Positions 43,201 through 50,588 of a stretch of DNA of 64,000 nt are shown here, piece after piece. Source of the DNA: Marinitoga sp. 1197 (GTDB lineage: Bacteria; Thermotogota; Thermotogae; Petrotogales; Petrotogaceae). The translations under genes and the position numbers were made by a program. The DNA lies in contig NZ_AZAY01000048.1 of assembly GCF_001021165.1 (NCBI RefSeq), positions 149-64,148 of the forward strand, read 5' to 3'. Every line of letters starts with the position of its first letter. The stretch's first letter is position 1. Under the pieces are notes generated by a model that did not search any database, was not told where the DNA came from, and was given only the letters and a program-made list of their open reading frames with translations.

Positions 43201-43944
43201 ATGCTCAAATTAAAAAATATAAGTTTTAAAACTGGCTCGAGAAAGATACTTGAAGACATTTCTTATAAGTTCGAAAAAGGTAAAATTTATGCTGTTTTGG
43301 GAAATAATGGAGTTGGCAAATCAACATTAGCGAGAATAATCATGGGATTGGATGGATATATTAGGAAACATGGTGGTTTAATAATTTTTAACGGTGAAGA
43401 TATCACAAATCTCAATATAACAGAAAGAGCAAAGCGTGGAATAACAATGGCATGGCAAGAACCCGTAAGATATGAAGGATTAGGAGTCAGAGAATATTTA
43501 ACTTTAGGTAAGAGAATAAACTTAAATGATTCTGAACTAATTGAAATATTGAATTTAGTAGGATTAAATCCCTTTTATTTACATAGAAAAGTAGATAAAA
43601 CTCTTTCAGGTGGAGAAAGGAAAAGAATTGAATTGGCTTCATTAATTATTTTAAAACCTAAATTTGCAATTTTTGACGAACCAGATTCTGGTATTGATAT
43701 GATGTCAAATATTATGATTGAAAGGATATTTAAAATAATAACTGCAAATGGTGGAACTGTTTTGAGTATAACTCATAGAGAAGAAATAGCTGAAATTGCT
43801 GATGAAGCTTTCCTTATTTGTTCTGGAAAAATAAAAGCTGAAGGTGATCCTAAAAAAGTTTCTGAAGTTTACAAATCCACATGTGATAACTGCACTCATA
43901 TAAATGTTCCAGTTGAATTCACTGAAGACGAGGTGAAATTATGA
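43201..43944 (+). CDS. sufC: Fe-S cluster assembly ATPase SmsC/SufC
   Basis: An ABC-type ATPase of 247 residues that energises iron-sulfur cluster assembly on SufB-like scaffolds. Walker A is GNNGVGKST, the Q-loop region is AWQEPVRYEGL, the signature LSGGERKR, Walker B FAIFDEPDSGID, and the H-loop SITHREE. The C-terminal tail carries CDNCTHINVP, a Cys pair absent from E. coli SufC. It overlaps the scaffold gene by 4 bases. Only these two genes are present, with no SufD, SufS or SufU, matching the minimal SMS system. Confidence 0.9.
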   Translation: MLKLKNISFKTGSRKILEDISYKFEKGKIYAVLGNNGVGKSTLARIIMGLDGYIRKHGGLIIFNGEDITNLNITERAKRGITMAWQEPVRYEGLGVREYLTLGKRINLNDSELIEILNLVGLNPFYLHRKVDKTLSGGERKRIELASLIILKPKFAIFDEPDSGIDMMSNIMIERIFKIITANGGTVLSITHREEIAEIADEAFLICSGKIKAEGDPKKVSEVYKSTCDNCTHINVPVEFTEDEVKL

Positions 43945-44900
43945 ATATAGAAAAAAACTATGCAAAAGAATTTGAAATGATTGAAAAAGCATATGAGCAA
44001 GCTGGTGGTGATATTAGCAATTTATTAAGTAAAGACATAGTATCTATAATTATAAGCGGAGATAGAATACTTGGTAAAAATACAGTTGATGGTATAACTA
44101 TAAATGTTAAAAGTGCAGAAAATGGAAAAGTTGAATATGAAATGATAATAGAAGATAATTTAAAACTTGATAAACCCATACACATGTGTGTTGGTTTTCT
44201 AAAAAAGCAGGGAGAACAATATATAAAATCCACATATAAAATTGGCAAAAATTGCGACATAAAATTTTTATCACATTGTTCATTTCCGTTTGGTAAAATT
44301 CATCATAAAATGGAATCAGAAATGTATATTGATGAAAATTCAGTTGTATTTATGGAAGATGAACATTTTCATAATGAAAAAGATGGAATATTCTTAGAAA
44401 CATATTATTATACGAAAGTTTCAAAAAACTCTGTTTTTGATAGTAGATTTAAATTAACAAAATCAAGAGCAGGTAATTTGAAAATTCACATGACGGTTGA
44501 TTTAGATGAAGATGCAAAAGCGCTATTAGAATCAAAGGTCTGGGGAAAAAATGATGATAAAATTGAAATAAAAGAAATAGTAAATTTAAATGGTGAAAAA
44601 TCTTCTGGAATTGCAAAAACGTATGTTTTTGCTCAAGACTCAACAAATGCAGAAGTTATCAATGAAGCTTATGGTAATGCGCCTTATTCAAAAGGACATA
44701 TTGAATGTACGGAAATTAGCAAAGGTTCAAATGTTCATGTAAGTACCATTCCAATTTTGAGAGTAAATAATGATTTAGCAGAATTAACTCATGAAGCTTC
44801 TGTAGGAAGGGTTAATCCACAGCAATTAGAAACATTAATGGCAAAAGGACTAACGGAAGATGAAGCGACAGAACTAATAATTAAAGGTATTCTAAAATAA
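43941..44900 (+). CDS. sufB: Minimal SufB-like Fe-S scaffold (SmsB)
   Basis: A 319-residue SufB/SufD-family protein, much shorter than E. coli SufB (about 495). It has the beta-helix core and the C-terminal part RVNNDLAELTHEASVGRVNPQQ with the family Glu and His residues, ending LTEDEATELIIKGIL. Candidate cluster residues are Cys in LSHCSFPFGKIHHKM and in HIECTEI. It pairs with the ATPase just upstream. This two-gene form is the proposed ancestral SMS machinery known from archaea and anaerobes. Confidence 0.88.
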   Translation: MNIEKNYAKEFEMIEKAYEQAGGDISNLLSKDIVSIIISGDRILGKNTVDGITINVKSAENGKVEYEMIIEDNLKLDKPIHMCVGFLKKQGEQYIKSTYKIGKNCDIKFLSHCSFPFGKIHHKMESEMYIDENSVVFMEDEHFHNEKDGIFLETYYYTKVSKNSVFDSRFKLTKSRAGNLKIHMTVDLDEDAKALLESKVWGKNDDKIEIKEIVNLNGEKSSGIAKTYVFAQDSTNAEVINEAYGNAPYSKGHIECTEISKGSNVHVSTIPILRVNNDLAELTHEASVGRVNPQQLETLMAKGLTEDEATELIIKGILK

Positions 44901-45622: not shown

Positions 45623-45650
45623 CAAAGTTTGACATTGGTACAAAACTTTG
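45623..45650 (+). promoter_or_regulatory. Inverted repeat, candidate operator of the opu operon
   Basis: CAAAGTTT (45623-45630) and its complement AAACTTTG (45643-45650) are separated by 12 bases and overlap the -35 box and spacer of the opu promoter. The centre-to-centre distance is about two helical turns, as for a dimeric repressor. Confidence 0.5.
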
Positions 45651-45657
45651 ATATAAT
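45629..45657 (+). promoter_or_regulatory. Consensus promoter of the opu operon
   Basis: TTGACA (45629-45634), 17 bp, TATAAT (45652-45657): a perfect sigma-A promoter, 28 bases before the first ATG. Confidence 0.85.
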
Positions 45658-45685
45658 TTTACAAAAGAGAAACAAAGGTGATATA

Positions 45686-46345
45686 ATGAACTATCTTAAT
45701 TATCTCTATATTAATCAAGAAAAAATCATAAAAGAATTAATAAATCATATTCGTATAATTGGAATTGCGTTACCTTTTGCCGTTATAATCGGCATTGGAA
45801 TTGGTTTCATTATTTCTAGAAATCAAAAAATGTCTAAAATTGTATTATATATTGCAGGAATTTTGATGACAATTCCAAGTCCAGCATTATTTGGTATAAT
45901 GGTTATACTTCTTGCTCCTTTCCATATGAGTTTAGGAAGACCTCCTGCCATTATTGCTTTAGTAATTTATTCACTGCTTCCAATGATTAGAAATACTTTA
46001 GTTGCAATTCATACTTTGGATAAAGGTATTATTGAATCTGCACGAGGAATGGGAATGAATGAAAGGCAAATTTTATTTAAAATAAAATTGCCACTTTCAA
46101 TTCCTATTATTATGTCTGGAATAAGAAATTCTGTTGTTATGGGTGTCGGAGTTGCAACTATAGGATATTATATTGCAGCTGGAGGCTTAGGATATTTTAT
46201 TTTTGCAGGTTTAAGTAGAGGAAGATATGAAATGATTATCACAGGTGTAATTTTGTTGGCGATTTTAGGAGTTGGTCTTAATTATATTATGCTAAAATTT
46301 GAGGAATTAATCACGCCAAAAGGTTTGAAAGTTAAGATTAATTAA
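45686..46345 (+). CDS. opuBB: Osmoprotectant ABC transporter permease (first)
   Basis: A 219-residue BPD-type permease with about five or six helices and the EAA loop ESARGMGMNERQILFKIKLP. The GGLGYFIFAGLSRGRYEMI segment is typical of glycine betaine/carnitine/choline transporters of the OpuB/OpuC type. The frame opens upstream at 45617, but AGGTGATATA directs the start to 45686, after the promoter. It lies first in the order permease-ATPase-permease-binding protein. Confidence 0.9.
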   Translation: MNYLNYLYINQEKIIKELINHIRIIGIALPFAVIIGIGIGFIISRNQKMSKIVLYIAGILMTIPSPALFGIMVILLAPFHMSLGRPPAIIALVIYSLLPMIRNTLVAIHTLDKGIIESARGMGMNERQILFKIKLPLSIPIIMSGIRNSVVMGVGVATIGYYIAAGGLGYFIFAGLSRGRYEMIITGVILLAILGVGLNYIMLKFEELITPKGLKVKIN

Positions 46346-46356
46346 TGGAGGACATT

Positions 46357-47382
46357 ATGAGTATTGAATTAAAAAATGTGTCTAAAAAATATAACGATAA
46401 ATTTGCAGTAAAAGATTTGAATTTAAAAATTGAGGATGGAAAAATAACAGTTTTGATAGGTCCATCTGGGTGTGGAAAAACAACCACATTAAAATTATTG
46501 AATAGATTAGTGGAAAGAAGTGAAGGGGAAATATTTTTTGATGGTATTTCGATTGATGACATTGATAAAATTCAGTTGAGACGAGGGATAGGTTATGTAA
46601 TTCAAGAAATTGGATTATTTCCTCATTATAATGTTTTCGATAATATTGCGGTAGTTCCAAAGCTGTTGGGTTGGAATAAAAGAAAGATAAAGGAAAAAGT
46701 AAAGGAACTTTTGGAACTTGTAAATTTAGATTATGATTCAATAGTTAATAAATATCCTTTAGAATTATCAGGTGGTCAAAGGCAGAGAGTAGGTGTAGCA
46801 AGAGCATTAGCAGCAGATCCGAAAATTTTGTTGATGGACGAACCTTTTGGGGCCATAGATCCGATTAATAGAGAAATTTTACAAGATGTTTTGTTGGATA
46901 TACAAAATAAATTAAAAAAAACAATTGTATTTGTTACACATGATATAAGAGAGGCAATTAAATTAGGAGATAAAATTGCCATTTTTAATAATGGTGAATT
47001 AGTTCAATTCGGTAGTACAGTTAATATAATTAAACAGCCAAAAAATGATTTTGTTAAAGAATTATTAGGTAAAAATGCTGAATTAAACTTTTTAGAATTT
47101 GTTAAAGTGGAAAAAGTTATAGATGATGATTATGCTTTAATAAGCTCTTTAGATGAAATAAATAAGTTAAAAAAGAATTGTTATATTTTGTATAATAATA
47201 AATATGCAGGTTTTTTTATAAATAATAATATAAAGAAGTTAAGAAAAGAATATATTAATTATAATGATAGTGTTTTAGAAGGAATAAATATTATGTTTAA
47301 GAAAAATATTAATTATTTACCTGTTTTGAAAAATGGAAAAGTTTTAGGAGTGTTAAAATACGAATCAATTATGGAGGATTAA
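46357..47382 (+). CDS. opuBA: Osmoprotectant ABC transporter ATPase with CBS region
   Basis: A 341-residue ATPase of the OpuA/OpuC class. Walker A GPSGCGKTT, Q-loop VIQEIGLFPHYNV, signature LSGGQRQRVGVARAL, Walker B LLMDEPFGAIDP and the switch His in VTHDIREA are all present. The C-terminal 100 residues include one recognisable CBS-like repeat (INYLPVLKNGKVLGVLKYES), the part that senses ionic strength in homologues. The ATG at 46357 follows GGAGGACATT. Confidence 0.93.
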   Translation: MSIELKNVSKKYNDKFAVKDLNLKIEDGKITVLIGPSGCGKTTTLKLLNRLVERSEGEIFFDGISIDDIDKIQLRRGIGYVIQEIGLFPHYNVFDNIAVVPKLLGWNKRKIKEKVKELLELVNLDYDSIVNKYPLELSGGQRQRVGVARALAADPKILLMDEPFGAIDPINREILQDVLLDIQNKLKKTIVFVTHDIREAIKLGDKIAIFNNGELVQFGSTVNIIKQPKNDFVKELLGKNAELNFLEFVKVEKVIDDDYALISSLDEINKLKKNCYILYNNKYAGFFINNNIKKLRKEYINYNDSVLEGINIMFKKNINYLPVLKNGKVLGVLKYESIMED

Positions 47383-47383
47383 A

Positions 47384-48031
47384 ATGGATTTATTTTCATA
47401 TTTTATAAATAATTTTGATGTTGTTATGCAAAGAACATTAGAACATCTATTTATCTTTTTTATTTCATGGATTTTATCAGTTGTTGTAGGAGTTTTTATA
47501 GGGATATATATTACAAGAGAGAAACGAAAAAGATATACTAATTTAGCTTTAACAATAACGGGTATAACGCAATCTATACCAAGCGTAGCTGTTATAGCTT
47601 TGATATTTTTATTTATGGGAATAGGTAAGTTAACAGCTATTATAGCATTGTTTTTATATGGTTTAGTTCCAATAGTTTTTAATACAACATCTGGAATTGT
47701 AAGTATCAGTCCTAAAATTATTGAAATTGCAAAAGGAATGGGAATGAATGAAAAAGAAATTTTATATAAAATAGAGATACCAATTGCTTTACCAGCAATC
47801 TTTTCTGGGTTAAGAAATTCAGCAATTATAAACATAGCTACAGCAACAGTTGCTTCAGTAATAGGCGGAGGTGGATTAGGAGTAATTATTTTCACGGGAT
47901 TATCCCATTATAATGCATCTATTATTTTTGCTGGTGCTTTACCTGTATCAGTTTTAGCGATAGGAATAGATATTGTGTTGGAACTTTTTGAGAAAAAATG
48001 GGTTTCTAAAGGATTAATAAATGAATTTTAA
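47384..48031 (+). CDS. opuBD: Osmoprotectant ABC transporter permease (second)
   Basis: A 215-residue permease, paralogous to the one at 45686, with the EAA loop EIAKGMGMNEKEILYKIEIP and GGGGLGVIIFTGL. Two different permeases per operon is the normal OpuB/OpuC arrangement. It starts one base after the ATPase stop. Confidence 0.9.
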   Translation: MDLFSYFINNFDVVMQRTLEHLFIFFISWILSVVVGVFIGIYITREKRKRYTNLALTITGITQSIPSVAVIALIFLFMGIGKLTAIIALFLYGLVPIVFNTTSGIVSISPKIIEIAKGMGMNEKEILYKIEIPIALPAIFSGLRNSAIINIATATVASVIGGGGLGVIIFTGLSHYNASIIFAGALPVSVLAIGIDIVLELFEKKWVSKGLINEF

Positions 48032-48043
48032 GGGGGAATTGTT

Positions 48044-48928
48044 ATGAAAAAAATTTTTATCGTATTGTTAGTTTTAGTTTTAAGCTTTAATTTATTAGCA
48101 GCAAAAACAATTGTTGTTGGTTCTAAGATGTTTACTGAAGGGTATGTTATCGCAAATATGATTTCATTATTGCTTAAAGATGCGGGTTTTAGGGTTGAAG
48201 AAGAATTTGGTTTAACATCATTTCCATTAAGAGCGGCAATTGAGAATGGACAAATAGATATATATTCTGAATACACAGGAACTGCATGGGCTGCGTATTT
48301 TAAACAAACGAAAAATATATATGATCCCTATGAATTATTTAATAAAGTTGCTGAAATGGATTATAAGAAAAATAAAATTATTTGGATAAATATGATACCA
48401 TTTAATGATACTTATGCAATGGCTGTGAAAAGCAAATTTGCTGAAGAAAATAATATAAGAACATTATCAGATTTATCAAAATTTGTTAATGCAGGTAATA
48501 AGGTTATTTTTGGAGTTAATCCAGAATTTTATGAACGAGCTGATGGTTTTTTTGCAATGGCAAAGTCCTATAATATGAACGTCCCCAAAAAATATGTAAA
48601 AACAATGGAAGCAGGATTGACTTATGAAGCAGTTTCCTCAGGAAAGATAGATGTAGCAATGGTTTATTCGACAGATGCTAAGCTTTTAAAATATAAATTG
48701 ACTGTATTAATAGATGATAAACGTTTTTTTCCATTATATAATCCTGCTATCTTAGTCAGGGAAAAAGTTTTAAATAAATACCCTGAAATAAAAGAAATAT
48801 TAAAACCTTTAACTTTATACTTAAATGAAAATATAATTATTAGACTAAATTATCTTGTTGATGTAAAAGGTTACGAACCTGAAATAGTGGCAAAAAATTT
48901 CTTAAAAGGATTAGGATTGATTAAATAG
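48044..48928 (+). CDS. opuBC: Osmoprotectant substrate-binding protein
   Basis: A 294-residue exported binding protein with signal peptide (residues 1-20, ending LLAAKT, no lipobox). The OpuAC domain has VVGSKMFTEGYVIANMI, QIDIYSEYTGTAWAAYF and the late GKIDVAMVYSTDAKL. Aromatic residues for quaternary ammonium binding are plausible, but the ligand (betaine, choline, carnitine or ectoine) is open. Only 9 bases separate it from the heme-protein gene pair, which suggests a shared transcript. Confidence 0.9.
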   Translation: MKKIFIVLLVLVLSFNLLAAKTIVVGSKMFTEGYVIANMISLLLKDAGFRVEEEFGLTSFPLRAAIENGQIDIYSEYTGTAWAAYFKQTKNIYDPYELFNKVAEMDYKKNKIIWINMIPFNDTYAMAVKSKFAEENNIRTLSDLSKFVNAGNKVIFGVNPEFYERADGFFAMAKSYNMNVPKKYVKTMEAGLTYEAVSSGKIDVAMVYSTDAKLLKYKLTVLIDDKRFFPLYNPAILVREKVLNKYPEIKEILKPLTLYLNENIIIRLNYLVDVKGYEPEIVAKNFLKGLGLIK

Positions 48929-48937
48929 GAGGGTTCT

Positions 48938-49342
48938 ATGGAAGAATTAGTAGAATTTTTAGGAACATTAAATATATTTTTTTTAGTGTTTAATTTATCT
49001 TTATTTTTTGTCAGAAGAATATATAAATATTTTATAACTGAAAAACAATCAAAAATAGCAAAATTAATTTTATTTATAATGAAAATATTAAAAAAATATC
49101 ATAAAATCTCTGGAATATTATTAATTGTTGTTGGAATAACGCATGGCTATTTGGCTTTAAATGGAAATTTATATTTACATACAGGATTGATTTTATGGAT
49201 AGGTATAATTTTTATGTTTTTAATTTATACATTGGGTAAAATAAATATTTTTAAAAATACATGGATTAAATGGCATAGATATATAGGGATGTTTTTAATT
49301 ATTTTATTAATTATTCATTTGGTTGATCCATGGCTATTATAG
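48938..49342 (+). CDS. Four-helix membrane protein with two bis-histidine heme sites (b-type cytochrome-like)
   Basis: 134 residues and four membrane helices (about 5-25, 54-74, 80-99, 110-130). Helix 2 carries His55 and His69 and helix 4 carries His113 and His127; both pairs are 14 residues apart, the spacing of the stacked hemes in cytochrome b561 and ferric-reductase-like domains. His81 opens helix 3. I infer a two-heme transmembrane electron carrier. It is 9 bases after the binding-protein gene and overlaps the longer frame of the secreted b5-like gene (real starts 11 bases apart). A quinone or flavin partner is not evident. The fold is inferred from the histidine pattern, not from a family match. 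Confidence 0.65.
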   Translation: MEELVEFLGTLNIFFLVFNLSLFFVRRIYKYFITEKQSKIAKLILFIMKILKKYHKISGILLIVVGITHGYLALNGNLYLHTGLILWIGIIFMFLIYTLGKINIFKNTWIKWHRYIGMFLIILLIIHLVDPWLL

Positions 49343-49353
49343 GAGGAGATAGA

Positions 49354-50355
49354 ATGAAAAAGGTATTATTAGTATTGATGGTTATTTTAAGTTTAGTTGT
49401 ATACGCTGAATATGTGAATATAATAGATTTAAATTATGATGAATTTGGAGTGAAATATAAAATAATTCCTTATAATAAATTAATAGAAAATAATGGCAAA
49501 AACAGCAAAGAGTCTTTTGTTGCAATTAGCGGAATTGTGTATGATGTTACCTATGAAAAACCATGGGAAAAAGGCTATCATGAAGGCTATAACGCTGGCT
49601 CAGAACTAACATTTGAAATTTTAAGACTTTCACCTCATGGTGTGAGTAAATTAAAAGATATTGATCATATTGGAATTTTAGCTTTTACTTATGATGAATT
49701 AAAAAAATTCAATGGGAAAAATGGAAATAAAGCGTATATAGCAGTAAATGGAATAGTATATGATGTGTCGCACTCTAAATTGTGGGAAAACGGTGAACAT
49801 AAAGGAAAACATGAGGCAGGAAATGATTTGACGTATGAAATAACAAAGTTGTCGCCACATGGGTTAAAAAAATTAGATAATGTTTTTCCAGTTGGTATAT
49901 TAATATATAGTTTTGATGAATTAAAGAAGTTCAATGGAAAAAATGGAAATAAGGCATATGTAGCAGTAAATGGAATAGTGTATGATGTATCTCACTCTAA
50001 ATTGTGGAAAAATGGAGAACATAAAGGAAAACATGAAGCTGGAAATGATTTGACATATGAAATAACAAAGCTGTCGCCACATGGATTAAAGAAATTAGAT
50101 AATGTATATAAAGTTGGATATATAGCTTTAAATAAAAATGAATTAAAAAAGTTTAACGGAAAAAATGGAAATAAAGCATATGTAGCAGTTAATGGAATAG
50201 TGTATGATGTGTCGCACTCTAAATTGTGGGAAAACGGTGAACATAAAGGAAAACATGAGGCAGGAAATGATTTGACGTATGAAATAACAAAGTTGTCGCC
50301 ACATGGGTTAAAGAAATTAGATAATGTATATAAAGTAGGATTTTTATTGTATTGA
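49354..50355 (+). CDS. Secreted protein with four tandem cytochrome b5-like domains
   Basis: 333 residues: a signal peptide (about 1-20), a short linker, then four units of about 74 residues. Each unit follows the bacterial short cytochrome b5 pattern: F/Y-x-x-x-x-L-x-x-x-NGKNG, AYVAVNGIVYDV, LWENGEHKGKHEAGND, and LSPHGLKKL. The His in NGEH/KGYH and the His in SPHG are the expected heme ligands and are present in all four units, so four hemes may bind. Unit 1 is diverged; units 2-4 are nearly identical even in DNA. GGAGGAGA sets the ATG at 49354. Together with the membrane cytochrome-like protein it suggests an extracytoplasmic electron relay. Binding of another ligand by b5-like folds (steroid, as in MAPR) is an alternative. 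Confidence 0.82.
   Translation: MKKVLLVLMVILSLVVYAEYVNIIDLNYDEFGVKYKIIPYNKLIENNGKNSKESFVAISGIVYDVTYEKPWEKGYHEGYNAGSELTFEILRLSPHGVSKLKDIDHIGILAFTYDELKKFNGKNGNKAYIAVNGIVYDVSHSKLWENGEHKGKHEAGNDLTYEITKLSPHGLKKLDNVFPVGILIYSFDELKKFNGKNGNKAYVAVNGIVYDVSHSKLWKNGEHKGKHEAGNDLTYEITKLSPHGLKKLDNVYKVGYIALNKNELKKFNGKNGNKAYVAVNGIVYDVSHSKLWENGEHKGKHEAGNDLTYEITKLSPHGLKKLDNVYKVGFLLY
49693..50355 (+). repeat. Three 222-bp in-frame tandem repeats
   Basis: The units begin at about 49693, 49915 and 50137, each 222 bp (74 codons). Long stretches of unit 1 and unit 3 of this set are identical, including synonymous positions, while the middle unit differs at scattered third positions. These encode the last three cytochrome b5-like domains. 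Confidence 0.9.
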
Positions 50356-50380
50356 CAAAATAAAATTTTTAATATATAAT
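50352..50380 (+). promoter_or_regulatory. Consensus promoter of the small winged-helix gene
   Basis: TTGACA (50352-50357), 17 bp, TATAAT (50375-50380). The -35 box overlaps the stop codon of the b5-like gene (50353-50355). Confidence 0.85.
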
Positions 50381-50405: not shown

Positions 50406-50585
50406 GTGAATACAATCGAATTAGTTGTTAAAGTATTATCAGAATCAAAAGAGCCGTTAAAAGCTGGAGAAATAGCAGAAAAAGCTGGGATTGATAAAAA
50501 AGAAGTAGATAAAGCAATAAAAAAATTAAAAAAAGAGGAGAAAATTGAATCTCCAAAAAGATGTTACTATACTATAAAGAAATGA
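50406..50585 (+). CDS. Small winged-helix DNA-binding protein
   Basis: A 59-residue protein with a GTG start after GAGGAGGGG. It is a bare winged helix: helix LVVKVLSESKEPLKAGEIAEKA, here interrupted only for quotation, then the recognition helix DKKEVDKAIKKLKKE and a short wing ending RCYYTIKK. The VLSESxxPLKAGEIAEKxGxxxKEVxKxIKxLKxxG pattern is common for tiny regulators in Thermotogota and archaea. It has its own strong promoter and a strong terminator, so it is expressed alone. Targets are unknown; the adjacent heme operon is a candidate. Confidence 0.8.
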   Translation: MNTIELVVKVLSESKEPLKAGEIAEKAGIDKKEVDKAIKKLKKEEKIESPKRCYYTIKK

Positions 50586-50588
50586 GTG

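Follow-up and report, generated by a model that had tools for sequence, protein, structure and literature searches.

A Thermotogota-wide gene pair that probably makes a transmembrane heme wire and a secreted multi-heme partner

Membrane b heme conduits that serve an extracytoplasmic redox domain are known from CYBDOM-type proteins (DOMON fused to cytochrome b561) and from MsrQ–MsrP. The gene pair analysed here, which we call mem and b5, differs from both in being bacterial and encoded by separate genes, in its four-helix membrane part, and in the occurrence of b5 and DOMON versions of the partner within a single phylum. The NOX/ferric reductase (PF01794) and b561 (PF01292) membrane proteins resemble Mem in having helices that carry two histidines each, with a predicted transmembrane diheme stack, but Mem has only four helices and 134 residues, includes no flavin/NAD domain, and scores far below the cut-offs of these families. 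The nearest precedent is in Thermococcus barophilus, in which a DUF4405-type half-b561 is fused to a b5 domain (PMC5898192). The half-b561 proteins (DUF4405, PF14358; arCOG04002) share with the Thermotogota pair the two-helix, two-histidine unit, predicted b heme electron transfer, and the union with a b5 domain; by contrast, Mem has four helices, and thus both halves, and scores 23.3 bits against the PF14358 cut-off of 26.7, while its b5 partner is a separate, secreted, four-domain protein that can be replaced by DOMON. The original prediction of a system without described counterpart is therefore too broad, given this archaeal fusion, and holds in part. To our knowledge, based on the open-access literature, no described system from heme-auxotrophic anaerobes can exchange a b5 for a DOMON partner.

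The window (the whole 64,000-nucleotide stretch of Marinitoga sp. 1197 DNA that was analysed) carries mem and b5 downstream of the genes for an OpuC-type osmoprotectant transporter (Table 1). The predicted coordinates, lengths, and spacing of mem, b5, and the OpuBC-type gene are correct: mem begins 9 bases past the end of the OpuBC-type gene and has its own GGAGG site, and the likely start of b5 is preceded by its own AGGAGG site. The reported lack of a terminator was also borne out, there being no terminator-like site between the OpuBC-type gene and the end of b5; the next on the + strand is at 50588. The transporter genes, mem, and b5 are probably co-transcribed, in Marinitoga only. Judged by its match to the consensus, the downstream promoter would start a separate unit for the gene at 50406–50585, which encodes a 59-aa winged-helix protein (85–97% identical across Marinitoga) and has, besides this 12/12 promoter match, its own terminator-like hairpin. 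Just upstream of the transporter block, the window encodes a SufB-like protein (43941–44900), for which the closest relative is SmsB of a minimal SUF system.

Table 1. Features of the mem/b5 locus (positions refer to the window)
Feature	Position	Strand	Description
Sigma-70-like promoter match (12/12)	45629..45657	+	Upstream of the transporter genes; consensus match only
OpuC-type osmoprotectant ABC transporter (permease, ATPase, permease, substrate-binding protein)	45683..48928	+	Upstream of mem
mem	48938..49342	+	134-aa four-helix membrane protein; putative diheme b-type cytochrome
b5	49354..50355	+	333 aa, signal peptide, secreted, four cytochrome b5 domains
Sigma-70-like promoter match (12/12)	50352..50380	+	Overlaps the b5 stop codon; consensus match only

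Profile searches of 103 Thermotogota genomes identified mem in 43 and b5 in 44, with both genes in 36 genomes, mem only in seven, b5 only in eight, and neither in 52 (Fisher P 4e-13, a value that ignores phylogeny). The two genes are adjacent and on the same strand in 25 genomes of ten genera (mem first in eight, b5 first in 17), and are apart or on other contigs in the remaining 11 genomes that have both. Counting the DOMON proteins described below, which accompany mem in two of the seven genomes that have mem only, Mem with a secreted heme-type partner is a conserved module. Certain single species carry frameshifted or broken copies of mem (G072:C52, G076:C1, and G066:C1) or of b5 (G029:C1 and G025:C40), and hence the module is sometimes being lost. 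A single-protein scan of genome contigs with Mem gave a match only in Marinitoga lauensis, and no mem was found in viral contigs. Likewise, mem was absent from a plasmid collection, in which the relatives of b5 are single-domain Bacillota genes with no mem-like gene annotated alongside (one record is unannotated). In one genus (g25 of family f5; L088, L089, L127, and L128), a lone b5 domain is joined in one protein to another kind of membrane domain, ~170 residues long.

Two genomes from two genera of the same family (G010 and G011) encode Mem and have no b5; instead, the gene directly after mem encodes a secreted DOMON protein of 171–180 residues (DOMON match, E 1e-12 to 3e-14). These two proteins were the only ones recovered when all 103 genomes were searched for DOMON, and a sequence search of the DOMON partner against the PDB gave no match. 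Beside mem, one extracytoplasmic heme-type domain is thus replaced by another. Modules of the DOMON type bind heme or sugar and occur in extracellular electron-transfer proteins, for instance as the cytochrome domain of cellobiose dehydrogenase. No other single observation argues as strongly as this swap for Mem serving a heme carrier outside the cytoplasm. Viewed as a natural experiment, the swap suggests a core formed by the membrane part and an outer heme carrier that can be exchanged.

In the AlphaFold model of Mem (pLDDT 93.9), four long helices span residues 2–32, 39–73, 82–99, and 108–129; H55 and H69 lie in helix 2, and H113 and H127 in helix 4, with 14 residues between the members of each pair. 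This histidine arrangement, already noted in the original prediction, is real and conserved in all of the 23 homologues that cover the positions: H55, H69, and H113 never vary, and just one sequence, which is ended by a contig edge, lacks H127. The fifth histidine of Mem, H81, is not conserved. Basic residues are concentrated in loop 1 (eight) and loop 3 (three), with none in loop 2, which under the positive-inside rule would place both termini outside; H55/H113 are accordingly predicted to face the cytoplasm and H69/H127 the outside.

No Pfam family matches Mem above its cut-off. The sub-threshold DUF4405 match falls on two stretches of the protein, which suggests a duplicated two-helix unit. 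A relationship to the cytochrome b561 and ferric reductase families, for which a profile search had been proposed, takes the form of weak matches and not of membership (PF01292, 11.4 bits, cut-off 30.1; PF01794, 11.1 bits, cut-off 28); the window's genome contains no PF01292 members. Mem does have the PF01794 trait of two helices with two heme histidines apiece (H55/H69 and H113/H127), and may work like a ferric reductase membrane domain without being a member of that family. Across the 23 homologues, sub-threshold matches were obtained to DUF4405 (13, taken at E up to 1), Ni_hydr_CYTB (11), and Ferric_reduct (nine), and these matches, all of them below cut-off, agree on heme membrane families. 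The best Foldseek match of the model is the NOX5 membrane domain, at a query TM of 0.60 with a non-significant E-value; NOX5, b561, hydrogenase cytochrome b, and b6f are among the best fold matches (query TM 0.4–0.6, no significant E-value). A sequence search of Mem against the PDB gave no match.

The b5 protein has a signal-peptide-like N-terminus followed by four repeats. The claim that these are four b5-like domains was upheld by profile and predicted structure: Pfam Cyt-b5 (PF00173) matches in four stretches (E 1.9e-26; 92.3 bits, cut-off 23.7), and the AlphaFold model aligns with the solved b5 domains 6nzx and 6vz6 at a target-normalised TM of 0.89, compared with only about 0.59 for bovine b5. 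The two former structures are archaeal single-domain proteins with 46–49% identity to one b5 repeat and the same GxH, HxAG, and PH histidines, but the window b5 is a secreted protein of four tandem repeats that is paired with a membrane cytochrome, and in it the HxAG histidine seems dispensable. Repeats 2–4 share 87–89% mutual identity, and repeat 1 is about 45–47% identical to the others.

Both candidate heme histidines had been predicted to be kept in every domain. This is true of the GxH/xPH pairs (H76/H95, H149/H169, H223/H243, and H297/H317), and fails for the HPGG-like HxAG histidine, which is missing from domain 1. Among 102 distinct b5 domains of relatives, GxH and xPH occur together in 85, are jointly missing from 13, and are discordant in four (some of these truncated; PGH/QGH variants were accepted in scoring the xPH column), and 20 domains that retain GxH and xPH lack HxAG. 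Because GxH and xPH covary and HxAG seems dispensable, the former two are the better candidate heme ligands. Two Marinitoga genomes (G001 and G006) have no HxAG histidine in any of the four b5 repeats, which seems to be a sign of concerted evolution between the repeats.

The core of the original prediction, a bis-histidine membrane cytochrome with a multi-b5 protein, is supported by conservation and fold, by the co-occurrence and adjacency of the genes, and by the DOMON swap. We consider it reasonably likely that Mem and b5 form a minimal transmembrane b heme electron conduit with exchangeable secreted partners, for which we infer heme occupancy and the direction and terminal acceptor of electron flow. 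Mem would be a four-helix cytochrome b built of two DUF4405-like hairpins, with helices 2 and 4 in parallel and binding two b hemes, the first near the cytoplasm through H55/H113 and the second near the outer face through H69/H127, an arrangement as in NOX/ferric reductase and b561 domains. The secreted b5 protein would dock on the outside, where its b hemes (four at most, with GxH and xPH as the probable ligands of each) would share the charge; it would thereby shuttle or buffer electrons between Mem and a partner outside the cytoplasm, whether donor or acceptor. The most likely source of the electrons would be the NADH/ferredoxin pool, and the heme cofactor would be imported. Candidate partners are an NQR-type complex without NqrA, the external FMN of which could exchange electrons with b5, and the oxidoreductases that adjoin the pair in other genera.

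With regard to these oxidoreductases, one genus (g24) has an rnf/nqr-type operon running divergently from the pair, or from mem where it stands alone. The pair is located 3′ of 2-oxoacid:ferredoxin oxidoreductase genes in two genomes (G060 and G087), and precedes an NfnB-like oxidoreductase pair in another (G044). The window's genome also has an rnf/nqr-type operon, away from the pair (contig C10, L106 8459–12307), which family models identify as NQR (NqrF, 316 bits, cut-off 295); it encodes NqrB, C, D, E, and F, and no NqrA. A reading of this second NqrB/RnfD-type locus as an Rnf complex without RnfC was rejected because NCBIfam models show NqrF and NqrD. The locus is followed by a gene for a 156-aa protein without matches, which is kept beside NqrBCDEF in other genera. 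NqrA-type matches in the phylum lie about 1.0–1.3 kb from the other, canonical Rnf locus (with a few exceptions in unrelated long frames), and would be RnfC. NQR-type NqrB was found in 37 of the 43 genomes with mem and 16 of the 60 without (counts that ignore phylogeny); six genomes with mem lack the NQR locus, and Marinitoga G002, which lacks the pair, also lacks NQR. The link between NQR and mem/b5 is a correlation, from which we advance a hypothesis that we rate as quite unlikely in its full form: that NQR without NqrA passes electrons from an outer flavin to the secreted b5 (or DOMON) hemes and the diheme wire of Mem, with scavenged heme standing in for quinone within a sodium-pumping respiratory chain of heme-auxotrophic Thermotogota.

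Ferrochelatase was not found in any of the 103 Thermotogota genomes, and ALAD was found in only four, which do not include the window's genome. Unless an unknown route exists, heme must therefore be imported or scavenged, and these cells appear unable to make it. The total of up to six hemes in the original prediction is a putative figure. AhbD gave no match above cut-off in the 103 genomes, with many radical-SAM background matches. The best AhbD match is at a locus in one genome (G040:C56 21733–24821), where an ALAD gene lies between two AhbD-like radical SAM genes; this is the sole Thermotogota genome of the set with a possible siroheme-type heme pathway.

The apparent lack of heme synthesis weighs most heavily against a constitutive heme relay, and in favour of either conditional use or heme capture. 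For the latter, the secreted multi-b5 protein would be a hemophore that catches environmental heme in the manner of NEAT-repeat proteins, and Mem would receive the heme or pass it inward in a heme auxotroph. Besides the apparent auxotrophy of the phylum, the b5 repeats fit this role as near-identical heme domains, variable in number and ligand set, and the membrane histidines could relay heme as well as electrons. The four histidines of Mem are, however, spaced and placed in their helices as for stacked bis-histidine electron-transfer hemes, and in several genera the pair adjoins redox enzymes, with no heme transporter seen next to it. The replacement of b5 by DOMON, a domain known mainly from electron-transfer proteins, also argues against heme acquisition, which we consider unlikely.

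The electron conduit could alternatively serve detoxification, exchanging electrons with oxygen species or with oxidised components of the envelope and so protecting a strict anaerobe, like the Escherichia coli superoxide oxidase CybB or MsrQ–MsrP. CybB and MsrQ are both small membrane proteins that carry heme and have their substrates or partners in the periplasm, and the patchy distribution of an easily lost module would suit such a function. Nevertheless, the loci examined showed no recognisable peroxidase, methionine sulfoxide reductase, or lipocalin beside the pair, and the CybB-family match is weak (best E 0.0042 in any Mem family member), making this role distinctly improbable.

A functional role for Mem and b5 within the osmoprotectant operon, such as redox sensing of envelope stress, is extremely improbable: the nine-base spacing without a terminator speaks for it, as does Marinitoga G002, in which the block from serine acetyltransferase to b5 (including the transporter and mem) is missing and a Transposase_31 gene stands in its place (L107 9074–10120), but transporter genes lie beside the pair only in Marinitoga, and in other genera the pair is found without them. 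The predicted attachment to this operon is thus valid for Marinitoga, and a functional link, with the operon as part of the system, was rejected.

Thermotogota are usually described as fermenters without cytochromes. The pair probably makes, across this phylum, a transmembrane heme wire and a secreted multi-heme partner; if so, these organisms would have a cytochrome-based electron route that runs on scavenged heme, and about two fifths of the genomes searched would encode an envelope heme module.
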